From Nitratiruptor sp. SB155-2 (GTDB lineage Bacteria; Campylobacterota; Campylobacteria; Campylobacterales; Nitratiruptoraceae), in NCBI RefSeq assembly GCF_000010325.1, contig NC_009662.1:826501-890500 (forward strand): a stretch of 64,000 nucleotides of DNA. The letters are read 5' to 3'. The notes beneath the pieces were generated by a model. That model was given only the letters and a program-made list of their open reading frames with translations, was not told where the DNA came from and did not search any database. This document shows positions 39,361 to 46,529 of the stretch, piece after piece. The position numbers and the translations under genes are program-made. How positions within the stretch are numbered: the first letter of the stretch is position 1; every line of letters begins with the position of its first letter.

Positions 39361-39941
39361 CGCCGCAAAAATGTGTCTTGATTGGTGCTTCCACAGGGGG
39401 TCCAGAATTTATAGAAAAGATTGCAATGGTATTGCCTAAGGCTTATCCTTATCCGATATGCGTTGTTTTACACTTCCCTATGCATTTTTCTGCTTCCTAT
39501 GCAAAAAGACTTGATGAACACAGCGCTGTGCATGTTACAGAAGCCGAAGATGGTATGAAATTGTATCCGGGAACGATGTACATAGCAAAGAGCGGCCGGC
39601 ATATGTGTTTTGGGAAGGATGGGCATAATATTGTAATACAACTGAAAAATAAAAATAGAGAAGAACTTTTCACTCCTAGTGTCGATGCGATGTTCCTGAG
39701 TGCAAAAGATGTTTTTGATCCTAAACATATATTGGCCGTTTTGCTGACGGGAATCGGGAGTGATGGTGCTTTAGGAATGGTTGAACTTAAAAAGGCAGGC
39801 GCTTTGACCATCGCCCAGGATGAAAAGAGCTCTATAGTATATGGTATGCCTAAAGAGGCTTTTGCAAGAGGGGGCGTTGTAAAGATACTTCCTTTTCATG
39901 AAATAGTGAAAGAGATACTTCGTTTTGGAGAGAAAAGATAA
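39357..39941 (+). CDS. cheB: Chemoreceptor methylesterase CheB (catalytic domain only)
   Basis: A 194-residue protein that removes methyl groups from chemoreceptor glutamates. The catalytic Ser lies in IGASTGGPE, His in VLHFPMHFS, and Asp in TGIGSDGALGMVELKKAGA. The receiver domain found in E. coli CheB is absent, as in Campylobacter and related species, so it cannot be regulated by CheA phosphorylation in the usual way. It is separated from cheR by a gene of unknown function. Confidence 0.93.
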   Translation: MTPQKCVLIGASTGGPEFIEKIAMVLPKAYPYPICVVLHFPMHFSASYAKRLDEHSAVHVTEAEDGMKLYPGTMYIAKSGRHMCFGKDGHNIVIQLKNKNREELFTPSVDAMFLSAKDVFDPKHILAVLLTGIGSDGALGMVELKKAGALTIAQDEKSSIVYGMPKEAFARGGVVKILPFHEIVKEILRFGEKR

Positions 39942-40450
39942 TGGGTTTTAAAAAAGGGGTACAAACACAAAAAATCATACGTTTCAAAGAGTTTGATGAA
40001 GCAAGGGATTATATTGAAAATTTCCAAAAATATCATCAAGACAATATCTATGCAGCGATCGACTATATGATAAGTCATAAAGAGTACTATTTTCTTTTGA
40101 AAAATCTTTTAAGACATCAACAAAACGGAAAAATTGAAAAGTTCGTAGAATATCTTTTTTCAAGATTAGAGTGTCTTAAACGTAATGAAGATCGGAAACT
40201 ATTAAAGCAGTTGTTACAGTGTAGGAATACTTACTTGCAAGAAAAAACATTTTCATTCATCATCAATTGCTGTGAGACTTTTGATATAAGTGACATGCTT
40301 GAGGATTATGAACCTTCTTTGCAACAGATAGAGCTTATCGTAAACCATTTGGAATGTGAATCAATCAAAAAATACACAGAAGCGCTTCAGAAAAAACTCT
40401 TAGAAAAATATCGTTTGTTAAGCAGGAACAAAGATGCTGAACTTGGATGA
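39941..40450 (+). CDS. Unrecognised helical protein between cheB and cheR
   Basis: A 169-residue soluble protein, predicted mostly helical from its Leu/Lys/Glu pattern, with no signal peptide and no membrane segment. Repeated helix pairs (YFLLKNLLRHQQNGKIEKF, RKLLKQLLQCRNTYLQEKTF) suggest an alpha-solenoid or HEAT-like fold. Cysteines occur at LECLKR, LQCRNT, INCCET and LECESI. It shares a TAATG junction with cheB and overlaps cheR by 17 bases, so the three are translationally coupled. An adaptor role in receptor methylation is a guess from position. Confidence 0.8.
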   Translation: MGFKKGVQTQKIIRFKEFDEARDYIENFQKYHQDNIYAAIDYMISHKEYYFLLKNLLRHQQNGKIEKFVEYLFSRLECLKRNEDRKLLKQLLQCRNTYLQEKTFSFIINCCETFDISDMLEDYEPSLQQIELIVNHLECESIKKYTEALQKKLLEKYRLLSRNKDAELG

Positions 40451-41249
40451 ATTGAAAAAAATCCGCGATTATATCGATGAAAAAACCGGTATTTTCATAG
40501 AGGATGATATTCTAACGACTGTATATAAAAGAAAAATAGAAAATTTTATGAAAGAAAATGATTTCGATCTTTTTTCGGATTTTTTCCATGCACTTCAAGA
40601 TAGGGCCATTTTGCAAGACTTTATCAATATCATTACGATCAATGAAAGCTATTTTTTTAGAGAAAAACACCAATTTGACGTGTTGGTCAAGTATGTATTG
40701 CCAGAACTTGATACAGTACGTCCATCTAGCGATACGATAAACATTCTCTCTTCACCATGCTCTTCTGGTGAGGAGATTTATACGATAGCCATGGTCATTA
40801 AACAGGAATCACCCGTTTTTCACAAAAGAGATTTTTCTCTTGTAGGAATCGATATCAACTCTTTCATTTTGCAAATGGCGAAAAAAGGAGTTTATAATTC
40901 ACGAAGTGTTATGGCCGTTCCAAAAACCTATCTTGATACTTATTTTCATAAGATGGAAGATGGGTATCTTATCGATAAAGAATTTGTAAACAATGTTGAA
41001 TTTCACAATATCAATGTCATGGACTATTACGCTATGAGGCGCCTTGGAGTGTTCGATATCATATTTTCTAGAAATATGCTTATCTATTTCAGTTCAAAGG
41101 CAAGAAAGAGTATACTTTCGACATACTATTCTATGCTCAAGCCCGGAGGATATCTATTTTTAGGCCATGCGGAACAGATACCCAAAGATATGGATCTTTT
41201 TAAACAGATCAATATTCAAGGAACCACTTTGTACAAAAAATTAGTTTAA
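40434..41249 (+). CDS. cheR: Chemotaxis protein methyltransferase CheR
   Basis: A 271-residue enzyme that methylates chemoreceptor glutamates using S-adenosylmethionine. The N-terminal helical domain precedes the methyltransferase domain with [34 protein letters not shown] and [31 protein letters not shown] and [13 protein letters not shown] are also conserved. It has no C-terminal TPR or receptor-tethering pentapeptide sensor that I can see. Overlap with the unknown gene upstream links it to cheB. Confidence 0.94.
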
Positions 41250-41259
41250 AGGAGATGTT

Positions 41260-41586
41260 ATGAACATACCAAAGTGTCCAAAATGCGAAAGCGAATATGT
41301 TTACGAAGATGGAGAACTCTTTATCTGTCCTGAATGTGGATTCGAATTTGACAAAGAGTACAAAGAGGAGGGGCTCATTGTCAAAGACGCACATGGCAAT
41401 ATTTTGCAAGATGGCGATACCGTCGTAGTGATGAAAGATTTGAAGGTCAAAGGAGCAAGTGGTTCCGTAAAAGCTGGAACGAAAGTGAAAAATATCAGAC
41501 TTTGTGAAGGCGATCACAATATTGACTGCAAAATCCCAGGTTTTGGTGCAATGAAGTTAAAAAGCGAATTTGTCAAAAAAGCCTAA
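41260..41586 (+). CDS. PhnA/YjdM-family zinc-ribbon protein
   Basis: A 108-residue protein. An N-terminal zinc ribbon has [25 protein letters not shown] (two CxxC pairs), shown here only as its pattern CPKC and CPEC about 19 residues apart. The C-terminal part has the PhnA signature [25 protein letters not shown] and the ending [14 protein letters not shown]. Despite the old name, no phosphonate genes are nearby, and the molecular role is not known. Confidence 0.88.
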
Positions 41587-42169: not shown

Positions 42170-42171
42170 CT

Positions 42172-44127
42172 CTAGATTAGCCATTTTTTTTCAAAATCGT
42201 CTTTACAAAGCGGTTTATCAAAATAGTATCCTTGAATCAGATGGCAATCAAGATCAAGTAATATATCCAACTGTTCTTGATCTTCTACCCCTTCAGCAAT
42301 GATTTTATAACCAAGACCTTTAGCAATCTCTACAATTGCATGTACAATAATTCTATCATCTTTATTTTTTACAATATCATCGATGAATGTTTTATCTATT
42401 TTAATCTTATCAACAGGAAATTTTTTGATGTAAAAAAGTGAGGAGTACCCAGTACCAAAATCATCGATAGAGATGGAAAATCCATGATCATGCAGTTTTT
42501 TGAGCATTCGTAAAGTAGTTTCTAGGTTTTGCATAATGGATGTCTCTGTAATTTCTAACTCAATCGAAGATGTATCAATACCATTTTTCTGAATTAGGTT
42601 TGTGAATTTGTAATAGAAATTACTTTGTGCAAAATGGTTAGCAGAGATATTGATAGCAATTTTTTGTGAAAATCCATAGCGCTCTTTCCACTCTTTAATA
42701 TCCTGGACAACATGAGAAAAGACTATTTGATCAATTTGTTGAATCAAATTACGCTCTTCTGCAAGTGGAATGAAATGATAGGGAGTCAGTATCCCTTTTT
42801 GGGGATGTTTCCATCGAATAAGTGCTTCTGCTCCAATAAGTTTGTTAGATCGTGCATCAATTTGTGGTTGATAATAGATTAAGAATTGATCTTTTTGTAT
42901 TGCAATTTTTAGTTCATGTTCCAATATAAATTTAGATTCAACTTTATCTGCAAGCTGTTTATTGAAAAAAGAGAATCTATTTTTGCCTCGTTCTTTTGAA
43001 CGATACATTGCAATATCAGCATTTTTTAGAATATCTTCAACACTTTTCCCATCTTTAGGAAACTCAACAATACCAATGCTTATAGAAATATGGTACATAT
43101 TTTTGGATGGGGAGAGGACTATAGGGGGCTGTAATTTGTGAAAAATTTTATCGACAATTTTTGTTATGATTTTGGGACTATCTATGTTTTGGATAATAAT
43201 AACAAATTCATCCCCACCGACTCTTGCAAAGATATCATCTTTTCTTAAAATATTTCTAATACGATTTGCGAAATTTTTTAATATTTCATCACCAACATTA
43301 TGTCCTTTCGTATCATTAATAGTTTTGAAATTATCGATATCGATAAAAAGAAGATAAAACGGAATATTTTTTGTAATTAAATCGCGTAATTTCGTTTCAA
43401 GAAAAGAACGATTGTATAATCCTGTAAGAAGATCAAAATTTGCTCTTTTTATAAGTTTAACTTCATATTGTGTGAGCATTTTGAAAAGTTCATGAAAATT
43501 GTTAGTAAGTGAGCCGATTTCATTATCGATTCTCTTTTTAATTTTTTTATCAAAGCGCTCTTCATAATAGTGCAAAACTTTTTTATTGAGTCTTTCAAGA
43601 GGTATAATTATATTACTTTTAGTAAATTTTCTAATATTATATAAAGCGATTACAGAAATAGTTACAATTATAAATATAATCGTAATTAATTCTATAATAA
43701 TATTGTGCAATTGTCGTTGGAATGAGGCAACTAAAATGATTTTACCTAAATAGTTGTTGTTGTCATCATATATGGATAGAGGGAAGTACAGATCAAAATC
43801 ATCAAATGTAGGAGAATTGATAGATTGATGATGAAGAGGAAAAGATCTAGGATATAAAATTTGTCCATCATGTGTGTAAACAACTACATTCTTTACATCC
43901 TTAAATCCTAAAATTAAAGGAAAACTGTCTTGTATGTATTGTATATCTTTGAAAACTAAAGCGTCTTTTATATAATCGCCGTAGATCTTCGTCATATTTT
44001 CTACTTTTTCCCTGAAATCATTTATTGCACTATTAAATAAAAAAATGGCAATTGCTATTATAGATATTGTTATGGATAGTATGGCATTTTTTAAAAAATT
44101 TTTTTGAAATGTTTTAGCGAGTCCCAT
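42172..44127 (-). CDS. Membrane-bound GGDEF-EAL cyclic-di-GMP protein
   Basis: A 651-residue inner-membrane protein. Two membrane helices (about 13-32 and 142-163) flank a periplasmic sensor of about 110 residues. A HAMP-like linker follows. The GGDEF domain has an intact GGDEF at 304-308 and an I-site RKDD at 295-298. The EAL domain has EALIR near 434, DDFGTGYSS, AEGVE and QGYYF, so both synthesis and breakdown of c-di-GMP look chemically possible. The architecture of the N-terminal half parallels YfiN/TpbB. Three bases separate it from the YfiR-like gene, which is expected to act on its periplasmic domain. Confidence 0.92.
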   Translation of the reverse strand: MGLAKTFQKNFLKNAILSITISIIAIAIFLFNSAINDFREKVENMTKIYGDYIKDALVFKDIQYIQDSFPLILGFKDVKNVVVYTHDGQILYPRSFPLHHQSINSPTFDDFDLYFPLSIYDDNNNYLGKIILVASFQRQLHNIIIELITIIFIIVTISVIALYNIRKFTKSNIIIPLERLNKKVLHYYEERFDKKIKKRIDNEIGSLTNNFHELFKMLTQYEVKLIKRANFDLLTGLYNRSFLETKLRDLITKNIPFYLLFIDIDNFKTINDTKGHNVGDEILKNFANRIRNILRKDDIFARVGGDEFVIIIQNIDSPKIITKIVDKIFHKLQPPIVLSPSKNMYHISISIGIVEFPKDGKSVEDILKNADIAMYRSKERGKNRFSFFNKQLADKVESKFILEHELKIAIQKDQFLIYYQPQIDARSNKLIGAEALIRWKHPQKGILTPYHFIPLAEERNLIQQIDQIVFSHVVQDIKEWKERYGFSQKIAINISANHFAQSNFYYKFTNLIQKNGIDTSSIELEITETSIMQNLETTLRMLKKLHDHGFSISIDDFGTGYSSLFYIKKFPVDKIKIDKTFIDDIVKNKDDRIIVHAIVEIAKGLGYKIIAEGVEDQEQLDILLDLDCHLIQGYYFDKPLCKDDFEKKWLI

Positions 44128-44130
44128 AAT

Positions 44131-44601
44131 TCAATACTTTCTAACAGCTAGACGTAATAGTCGTGAACTGATTTTTATACGAGATTTTTTTATACTGTTT
44201 AAGTTGACTTCAAAACGGATGTTTTTGCCTATTTGTACTAAATTAATCATACCTCCTAATTTTCCTAAATTTTCACCATCAGTGATAAGCAGGATTTTGT
44301 TGTCTCTATTTACAATTTGATGAACAAGTTTCTGATCATTAGTGACTACGACGTTACATGCATCTATATCTTGAAGATAGTGTAAAATAATCTTTCCTTC
44401 TTGAACTCTTCTTTTTTCTAATATTCTCAATTTTTTTGCGTATGGTAAATTTGGATCAATGCATAAATGAATTGTTGACACATTCTTCCATTGTATATAT
44501 TTTAAAAAATTATATATGTATGCTACTTTAATATCATCTATATTTGCACTTTTCGCAAAAAGGAAGAGAGTGAAGAGAATACTGAAAAGTATCTTTTTCA
44601 A
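44131..44601 (-). CDS. YfiR-like (DUF4154) periplasmic protein
   Basis: A 156-residue protein with signal peptide MKKILFSILFTLFLFA. The DUF4154/YfiR pattern is visible: VAYIYNFLKYIQW early, a middle nucleotide-free beta region, and the terminal block GGMINLVQIGKNIRFEVNL then RIKISSRLLRLA. In Pseudomonas YfiR binds the periplasmic part of diguanylate cyclase YfiN and holds it off. It starts with TTG overlapping the TGA stop of the receptor gene (TTGA) and is followed after three bases by a membrane GGDEF-EAL gene, so the same type of control is likely here. Confidence 0.86.
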   Translation of the reverse strand: MKKILFSILFTLFLFAKSANIDDIKVAYIYNFLKYIQWKNVSTIHLCIDPNLPYAKKLRILEKRRVQEGKIILHYLQDIDACNVVVTNDQKLVHQIVNRDNKILLITDGENLGKLGGMINLVQIGKNIRFEVNLNSIKKSRIKISSRLLRLAVRKY

Positions 44602-46466
44602 AATTTATATCCTATATTGATACGTACTGTTCTACCATGATCGGAATTAAAATCTTGTAGATGCTCTTTCCCAACAGGCGTTTTATAATGGGTATTGAAA
44701 ATATTATCTATTGATAATTTGAATTTAAATCTTCTATTTTGATGTTGTAATGTGAAATGGGGAATGATTCTATTATTGAGTGTCCGTTGCCATGATTTGA
44801 TTTTGGAAAGGTAATCAATCCAAAACATAATATTGAAATGGTTTTTATGATAAATAGTTTTGAAATCGAACATATGCTTTGGAGCATTTATAAGCCAACT
44901 ACCTAGATAATCTTTGGCATAGGTATATGTATATCCGAAATCATATGAAAAATTCATGTAGTTAATTCGAAAATTGCAGTCAAAGCCTTGTGATGTAATA
45001 TAAGGTATATTAGTATATTCAAGTGGTGACGAATCTTTTTGTATGATAAGATCTTCAATTTTAGTGTAGAATAAAGAAGTACTGAATTTCCAATTATCAT
45101 GTATTGTTTGATATAGAATTTCATAATTGTATGCAGTTTCCGGTCTAATATCTCTTTTTCCTGAAAAATTTGGATCATCACTATAATACAGTTCATATGA
45201 ATTTGGAACTCGAAAAGCAGTGGAAAAAAGAAATTTAATTGAGGACATTTCATCGATTGAAAATATATAAGCACATCTTGGTGAGAGTTTTTCTCCCCTA
45301 TTGTCTATATGATCATACCGGATACCAAATGAAAAATTGGATGGTCCGTTGTAGTACTCGAATTGAGAAAAGAGCGCTTTTTTGTGATCTCTGTGATTTG
45401 TATCGAGTATTTTAATGGAATTACTGTTGGCTATTTGTCTATTTTCTAATGAATAAACAATATCAAACCCTAGGAGAAATCTCAATCTATCCAATTTTTG
45501 GATTGCTATGGTTTCAAAATCGATCCAACTATTTTTAGCTGTATCAATCCATGGACCTGTATCATATAAAAAAGATCCTTCATATTGATAGATATTATAG
45601 GAAAATCTATTTTGTAGTGTTATGGTATCATAGTCTTTTCTATAAGAATATCCAAATATAATTCTTTCATCAATATTATATTGTTCGGATCCGGGAATGA
45701 CATTCCATGGAAAAGTAGGGTCATATTTTTTTCTTTTGACGTAACCACCATGAAGTGTTAATGTATCGCTTAAAGCATATTTGAAATATATTTTTTTTGC
45801 ATATTCTCGATCATTCGCATAAAAATTTTTTTGTAAGGAATATGAATAATAAGTATCTATTCCTTTTCGATCAAAAACAGAACTAAATATTTGAAAGTTA
45901 TTTATACTATAAGACAAGAGAGCCTTTTTCTCATCTTTGCTCCCATACAGTAATGATACTCTAGAATCGTTTTGTTTTGTAATGATATTAACAATAGCTA
46001 AAAAAGCATTGGAGCCATACAAAGATGAAGAAGGATTTCTAATTATTTCTATTCGCTGAATATTGTCAAGATCAAGTAAACTTCCGTTTTGGAAAAAACT
46101 TGAGGAGAAGATATTATCATTTAACCGAAAACCATCAACCAATATAATGAATTTTGAGCCCCAATCTCCAAACATTCCATATCCGTGGAAACCCATATAT
46201 CCATATGCATGATCATTACTGAAGTAAAAACCATTAATACTTTGTAAAAGCTCACCCAATGTTTGGTAAGGGCCTTCTTGAATTTCCTCTTCATTGATAA
46301 CGATAATGTCTGCGGGAGCTTTTAATATAGATTGTGTATATTTTGAAGCTGTAGATACTTTGGTTATTTCGATTGCCCCTAGCTCTTCTATATCCAGGTC
46401 CAGGAGCTGTTCATCTTGGGCGAACAAAAAAATGGAAATGAAAAAAAGTATAAGTGCATAACGCAC
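44598..46466 (-). CDS. TonB-dependent outer-membrane receptor
   Basis: A 622-residue protein with signal peptide (MRYALILFFISIFLFAQ), a TonB-box-like segment (GAIEITKVSTASK), a plug domain (about 45-150, APADIIVINEEEI, RIEIIRNPSSSLYGSNAFLAIVNIITK) and a 22-strand-type barrel ending in an aromatic residue (RINIGYKF). The closest broad class is the FepA/BtuB/vitamin-B12 and siderophore group; the ligand cannot be told. It starts with GTG after AAGGG. It is the first gene of a three-gene unit with the YfiR-like and GGDEF-EAL genes, and is more A/T-rich than its neighbours. Confidence 0.92.
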   Translation of the reverse strand: MRYALILFFISIFLFAQDEQLLDLDIEELGAIEITKVSTASKYTQSILKAPADIIVINEEEIQEGPYQTLGELLQSINGFYFSNDHAYGYMGFHGYGMFGDWGSKFIILVDGFRLNDNIFSSSFFQNGSLLDLDNIQRIEIIRNPSSSLYGSNAFLAIVNIITKQNDSRVSLLYGSKDEKKALLSYSINNFQIFSSVFDRKGIDTYYSYSLQKNFYANDREYAKKIYFKYALSDTLTLHGGYVKRKKYDPTFPWNVIPGSEQYNIDERIIFGYSYRKDYDTITLQNRFSYNIYQYEGSFLYDTGPWIDTAKNSWIDFETIAIQKLDRLRFLLGFDIVYSLENRQIANSNSIKILDTNHRDHKKALFSQFEYYNGPSNFSFGIRYDHIDNRGEKLSPRCAYIFSIDEMSSIKFLFSTAFRVPNSYELYYSDDPNFSGKRDIRPETAYNYEILYQTIHDNWKFSTSLFYTKIEDLIIQKDSSPLEYTNIPYITSQGFDCNFRINYMNFSYDFGYTYTYAKDYLGSWLINAPKHMFDFKTIYHKNHFNIMFWIDYLSKIKSWQRTLNNRIIPHFTLQHQNRRFKFKLSIDNIFNTHYKTPVGKEHLQDFNSDHGRTVRINIGYKF

Positions 46467-46501
46467 AATAATACCCTTAGATAAAAATTTGGATTATTTT
46501 C

Positions 46502-46507
46502 ATTATA
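46502..46507 (-). promoter_or_regulatory. -10 element of the receptor-YfiR-GGDEF/EAL operon
   Basis: On the minus strand TATAAT lies 36 bases before the GTG start of the receptor gene, in the 63-bp gap after plsC's stop. The surroundings are very A/T-rich. No Fur-box palindrome was recognised. Confidence 0.45.
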
Positions 46508-46529
46508 TAATATTAAGTTTAAAGAATGC

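Follow-up and report, generated by a model that had tools for sequence, protein, structure and literature searches.

The minus strand of the Nitratiruptor sp. SB155-2 genome carries a three-gene cassette at positions 42172-46466 of the analysed window, which is the 64,000-nucleotide stretch of contig NC_009662.1 from position 826,501 to 890,500. The first gene (44598..46466) encodes a TonB-dependent receptor (TBDR) of 622 amino acids that has a GTG start, a signal peptide, a Plug domain and a barrel. It is followed by a gene (44131..44601) with a TTG start for a YfiR/HmsC-like periplasmic protein of 156 amino acids, which carries a signal peptide and the domain DUF4154. The last gene (42172..44127, ATG start) encodes a membrane protein of 651 amino acids with both GGDEF and EAL domains.

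The open reading frames are tightly packed. The start of the YfiR-like gene overlaps the stop of the TBDR gene within the sequence TTGA, and only three bases separate the YfiR-like gene from the start of the GGDEF-EAL gene. A first-pass annotation, made by a model from the letters alone, had described these three minus-strand genes with their overlap and gap, and all are located where it placed them. The identities that it assigned are likewise borne out by Pfam, which reports Plug and barrel, DUF4154, and GGDEF plus EAL domains, respectively. Less can be said for the promoter-like TATAAT that it noted before the first gene. This hexamer is indeed present on the minus strand at 46502..46507, where it might serve as a -10 element, but it lacks a recognisable -35 element. 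A promoter scan lists no -35/-10 pair upstream of the TBDR gene, and promoter-like sites in the region are not in excess (30 found versus 28.3 +/- 4.6 expected). Thus, the promoter of the cassette is unproven.

Acquisition of the cassette

The cassette occupies an insertion (42170..46529) between convergent genes for an ABC ATPase and a PlsC-type acyltransferase. In all seven of the seven same-genus genomes examined the site is empty and the two flanking genes are convergent neighbours, whose ends are either separated by up to 12 bp or overlap by up to 26 bp. The alignment with the closest congener, whose PlsC protein is 92% identical, holds in both flanks of the insertion. Therefore, the cassette is a 4.36-kb gain in the lineage of SB155-2 that moved as one unit. 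The first-pass annotation had suspected later acquisition because the region is more A/T-rich than its flanks. The empty site shows the acquisition, and the base composition agrees: the insert has 29.4% G+C against a window mean of about 38.2-38.3%, which is near the minimum for segments of that size, and G+C at third codon positions is 22-23% in the cassette compared with mostly 30-38% in neighbouring genes.

A search of Campylobacterales genomes gave no DUF4154 match at E 0.001 in genomes of the same genus or family, and divergent members of the family turned up in congeners with a custom-built profile. Elsewhere in the window, the closest congener (L110) lacks cheR and a gene for a 169-amino acid protein (39941-41249, 31-34% G+C), and its cheB is directly followed by the small gene at 41260. 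This pair is possibly another recent gain or loss.

Gene order in other genomes

DUF4154 is found in 40 of 299 Campylobacterales genomes, from which 42 loci were taken. Their neighbouring genes were labelled by custom profiles, with a Pfam check on ten proteins; the label CHASE8 is approximate because the custom profile for this domain extends over HAMP. A TBDR gene is the immediate same-strand neighbour in 31 of these 42 loci (including L055), the divergent neighbour in three more and one gene further away in another two, so that 36 have a TBDR within two genes. Several of the remaining loci sit at contig ends. Since a Campylobacterales genome carries few TBDRs, and yet one lies beside most of the loci, this adjacency is far above chance. 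The first-pass annotation had proposed a search for the gene order, with adjacency in no relative as the outcome that would count against it, and the trio proves to be adjacent in many relatives.

The identity of the third gene varies among GGDEF, GGDEF-EAL, CHASE8-SpoIIE and histidine kinase proteins. In seven loci, YfiR and an output domain are fused in one chain, the output being GGDEF (L058, L059), SpoIIE (L060, L061) or a hybrid histidine kinase (L062-L064), and all of these fusion genes adjoin a TBDR gene except the contig-end case L061. Such natural fusions tie YfiR to its output domain. Proteins of the CHASE8-HAMP type that end in a SpoIIE/PP2C phosphatase are also encoded beside YfiR and a TBDR in five loci (L042, L044, L045, L050, L057); the accessible passages of the literature on YfiR systems do not name an output of this kind.

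The gene pair is also found in distant bacteria. The closest TBDR relatives in named genomes come from metagenome-assembled genomes (MAGs) of Sulfurospirillum and Gallionella, where the order is TBDR, YfiR and a CHASE8-HAMP-GGDEF-EAL protein. Two Phycisphaerales MAGs have TBDR, YfiR and CHASE8, with a hybrid kinase at the end of the one that is complete. A Pseudoalteromonas plasmid carries the trio as TBDR, YfiR and an EAL protein. A Sphingobium plasmid record carries TBDR, YfiR and an ATP-binding protein, read as a kinase. A plasmid search with the cassette YfiR as query found nothing, and the same search with the Gallionella YfiR found eight plasmids. Because TBDR-YfiR is found again in distant bacteria, where it is combined with other enzymes, it looks like a general means of conveying signals inward from the outer membrane.

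Similar operons are found elsewhere in the same genome, where three of the six TBDRs head an arrangement of TBDR, small protein and GGDEF-EAL protein. The second operon (genome positions ~509512-514347; L003 5513-10348) comprises a TBDR, a divergent YfiR and a PAS-GGDEF-EAL protein. Its YfiR scores 26 bits, and the class to which it belongs matches YfiR at 98.5% probability in a profile comparison. One congener has a close counterpart of this operon (G036, L181), and another has a similar one (G018, L183). In the third operon (~298767-303021; L177 1268-5522), a TBDR and a GGDEF-EAL protein are accompanied by a small periplasmic protein of 147 amino acids that has no match in Pfam.

Relatives of this 147-amino acid protein are present in 105 of the 299 Campylobacterales genomes and share the signature GGF(Y/F)WQKGRPN, which reads GGFYWQKGRPN in the Nitratiruptor copy. 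Among 30 loci fetched, a relative of the third-operon TBDR lies upstream in 28 (it is not seen in L212 and L213), a GGDEF protein lies downstream in 29, and EAL is visible in 27. Profile comparison gives this family a 4.9% probability of matching YfiR and 54% for the divergent YfiR class. Because this comparison is weak, homology to YfiR is not claimed, and the resemblance is suggestive only. At a fourth TBDR locus (~1629002-1632405; L179 3-3406), the next gene has a PAS domain and matches a histidine-kinase profile, and no small periplasmic protein lies between the two genes.

These arrangements bear on the null view that three unrelated genes merely arrived together and have no functional link. 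The conserved trio, the natural fusions, the overlapping genes and the joint insertion all speak against such a coincidence, which we regard as exceedingly improbable.

Predicted contacts and a proposed relay

The cassette, which was gained as a unit, probably relays signals from the outer membrane to the cytoplasm, and the TBDR would take the place that YfiB holds in the YfiBNR system of Pseudomonas aeruginosa. The TBDR would sense, and perhaps import, an external ligand, and its periplasm-facing N-terminus or its plug would contact the YfiR-like protein. This protein would also bind the CHASE8/PAS-like periplasmic domain of the enzyme, with F130, L149 and L151 of a conserved hydrophobic patch set against the enzyme motif DALVF, and would thereby hold the GGDEF-EAL enzyme in one state. 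Perhaps, when a ligand changes the TBDR, the YfiR-like protein is either drawn to the outer membrane or released from it, and the enzyme consequently alters its balance between synthesis and breakdown of cyclic di-GMP (c-di-GMP). We infer all of the binding events, the existence of a ligand, the way in which control runs and the net effect on c-di-GMP.

The YfiR-like protein matches PF13689 with 110 bits (1.4e-31; cut-off 24.9 bits). Its AlphaFold model has a predicted local distance difference test (pLDDT) score of 92 and, in Foldseek, reaches TM-scores of 0.73-0.78 to P. aeruginosa YfiR structures, so that the YfiR fold is confirmed at the level of the model. Malone et al. (PMC3375315) mapped YfiR binding to the motif AAVVF of the YfiN PAS domain and, on the YfiR side, to hydrophobic residues near the C-terminus. 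In the alignment, F162, E163, L166, I169, L181 and L183 of P. aeruginosa YfiR, whose functional roles are given in PMC3375315 and PMC4887326, correspond to F130, E131, L134, I137, L149 and L151 of the cassette protein. The equivalent of AAVVF in the enzyme is DALVF (residues 55-59; 43951..43965, minus strand), in which three of five letters are identical and the key phenylalanine is kept as F59. Most YfiR-linked output proteins have a DALVF-like motif that ends in F. The contact residues are therefore kept on both partners, and binding between the YfiR-like protein and the enzyme is predicted.

The enzyme consists of a transmembrane segment, a periplasmic PAS/CHASE8-like domain, a second transmembrane segment, a HAMP-like linker, a GGDEF domain (157 bits) and an EAL domain (267 bits). 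The first-pass annotation considered its EAL domain and I-site intact, and inspection of the motifs agrees. The I-site RKDD (residues 295-298) lies five residues before the active-site GGDEF (304-308; both within 43204..43245, minus strand), and the EAL motif (434-436; 42820..42828, minus strand) is followed by DDFGTG, KIDK, AEGVE and QGY, which completes the set of EAL catalytic motifs.

Another feature of the YfiR-like protein is a pair of cysteines, Cys47 (codon 44463-44461) and Cys82 (44358-44356), that delimit the stretch 44356..44463 on the minus strand. By alignment and column counts, these correspond to C71/C110, the redox pair of YfiR in P. aeruginosa (numbering of PMC4887326), and the cassette protein has no counterpart of C145/C152. 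It could be proposed that YfiR reads the periplasmic thiol state through Cys47-Cys82 and controls the enzyme, with the TBDR as a co-transcribed passenger. The C71/C110 pair is kept in the nearest GGDEF-linked relatives aligned as well as in the cassette protein, and redox control is known for YfiR (PMC4887326) and for HmsC (PMC5550408). However, about half of the aligned YfiRs lack the pair, and a passenger TBDR would not turn up next to YfiR in the majority of loci and in several classes and phyla, which makes this explanation very unlikely.

The TBDR itself matches PF07715 (62 bits) and PF00593 (87 bits), both over the cut-off, and no other Pfam family; a FecA-type N-terminal secretin/TonB signalling domain is not detected in the Pfam scan. 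In its closest full-length relatives, which are 25-30% identical, yfiR is again the next gene. Residues 21-37, LLDLDIEELGAIEITKV (46356..46406, minus strand), form an 'LEEL'-type box just before the TonB-box-like segment IEITKV. The genome encodes TonB/ExbD and six plug proteins. TBDRs that adjoin YfiR share a box ahead of the plug that fits (S/D)LE(E/Q)L, whereas other TBDRs of the same genomes mostly have a classical TonB-box-like segment at that N-terminal position.

A strict form of the pattern, chosen after the YfiR-linked sequences had been viewed, is found in 19 of 35 YfiR-linked TBDRs versus 6 of 62 others (Fisher p=4e-6, uncorrected for kinship). The contrast is understated, since four of the six box-bearing 'others' (L062, L063, L064, L093) actually adjoin a YfiR gene. 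Because the pattern was picked post hoc and the test ignores relatedness, what the box marks may be a subfamily of TBDRs and not a site of docking. The YfiB of P. aeruginosa touches YfiR via an N-terminal segment with F48, W55 and F57 (PMC4887326). By analogy, our preferred candidate for the YfiR-docking element is the LEEL-type box, which would have the role of that segment.

A further possibility is that the TBDR imports a small molecule into the periplasm and that YfiR, as a ligand-binding protein, carries this molecule to the periplasmic domain of the enzyme and never touches the TBDR. This resembles the model proposed for VpvABC of Vibrio cholerae, where PMC12456836 presents VpvB as a periplasmic binding protein. 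The model of the cassette YfiR also resembles periplasmic substrate-binding proteins (6k1x, 3lkv), and weak binding of vitamin B6 or Trp is reported for YfiR of P. aeruginosa (PMC4887326). However, the reported affinity of YfiR for such ligands lies in the ten-millimolar range, the cassette protein keeps the residues of protein contact, and the N-terminal box of YfiR-adjacent TBDRs suggests contact. Delivery by YfiR is thus unlikely, albeit more plausible than redox sensing.

The relay through receptor contact, which the first-pass annotation had put forward as receptor control of c-di-GMP, is favoured by the adjacency of the genes, the natural fusions, the modelled YfiR fold, the retained contact residues and the insertion as a unit, and also by the TonB/ExbD of the genome and by its c-di-GMP network, which is dense for a genome of 1.88 Mb (35 GGDEF and three PilZ matches). 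Several observations weigh against it. The periplasmic domain of the enzyme (about residues 36-141) scores 13.9 bits versus a CHASE8 cut-off of 27, and its structural model is of only moderate confidence (pLDDT 77). In structure this domain comes closest to PAS-type sensor domains and a LapD-type domain, and not to YfiN; Pfam identifies a clear CHASE8 in relatives L034, L035, L048 and L050. The TBDR and YfiB of P. aeruginosa have no recognised element in common. In addition, a total of 35 GGDEF matches in the genome raises the odds of a GGDEF neighbour, though not those of the trio.

A broader proposal, which we advance only tentatively, is that TBDR and YfiR-like protein form a general outer-membrane sensing unit, docked via the LEEL-type box, that drives one or another exchangeable output at the inner membrane (synthesis or breakdown of c-di-GMP, a PP2C phosphatase or a histidine kinase). 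A second version with the GGFYWQKGRPN protein would exist in Campylobacterota, and a large share of the TonB receptors of this phylum would be c-di-GMP signal receptors. Signalling from outer-membrane receptors to the cytoplasm is known in detail mainly from FecA-type sigma-factor systems. If the proposal is true, sensors are to be found among many receptors now annotated as nutrient transporters, many YfiR systems that lack YfiB gain the input that had been missing, and a specific external molecule can be linked to c-di-GMP. The pairing of a receptor and YfiR with a swappable inner-membrane output spans distant phyla, and the predicted relay lends itself to direct tests in Pseudoalteromonas and in those Campylobacterota that can be cultured.

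Comparison with known systems

The cassette resembles YfiBNR of P. aeruginosa and HmsCDE of Yersinia in its YfiR fold and hydrophobic contact residues, in a membrane GGDEF protein whose periplasmic domain is PAS-like, and in the presence of an outer-membrane partner. It differs in that this partner is a TBDR rather than an OmpA/Pal-like lipoprotein such as YfiB, in that the output protein has EAL besides GGDEF, and in that its YfiR lacks C145/C152. With a receptor substituted for YfiB, the cassette would operate in the manner of YfiBNR, but because YfiB is absent it is not YfiBNR by definition.

VpvABC is described as a porin, a periplasmic binding protein and a cyclase, and vpvAB has been suggested as a sensing unit; a survey confined to Pseudomonadota found the vpvAB pair without vpvC in many Proteobacteria (PMC12456836). 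Its outer-membrane protein, periplasmic protein and membrane GGDEF protein are encoded in the same order as in the cassette; unlike the cassette proteins, VpvA is called a porin and VpvC a diguanylate cyclase with EAL unmentioned (PMC12456836). The curated families of TOL_0244 and TOL_0243 (NCBIfam NF053590 and NF053591) likewise represent a TBDR and a YfiR-like protein whose source loci are adjacently numbered, and TOL_0244 is raised in growth on long alkanes. The cassette proteins fall well under the cut-offs of both families (82.7 of 645 and 71.8 of 125 bits). As in FecA-FecR-FecI, a TBDR would signal over the periplasm to the inner membrane, but the cassette TBDR lacks the N-terminal signalling domain and the operon lacks an anti-sigma or sigma factor gene.

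The idea of the first-pass annotation is less new than it assumed, because both a YfiB-less YfiR-YfiN core, known since 2012, and the analogous operon VpvABC had been published. According to the accessible part of Malone 2012, in which no TBDR is named, this core is widespread, usually lacks YfiB and has outputs of the GGDEF-EAL or kinase kind. Passages found in a paper on Pseudoalteromonas wrinkled variants and in one on Campylobacterota signalling give no account of the system. No description of TBDR-YfiR as a general unit was found in a literature search that covered few subscription papers. What appears to be new is the TBDR as a regular partner of YfiR, the N-terminal box of these receptors, and the Pfam-less family of small proteins that is present in a third of the Campylobacterales sampled.

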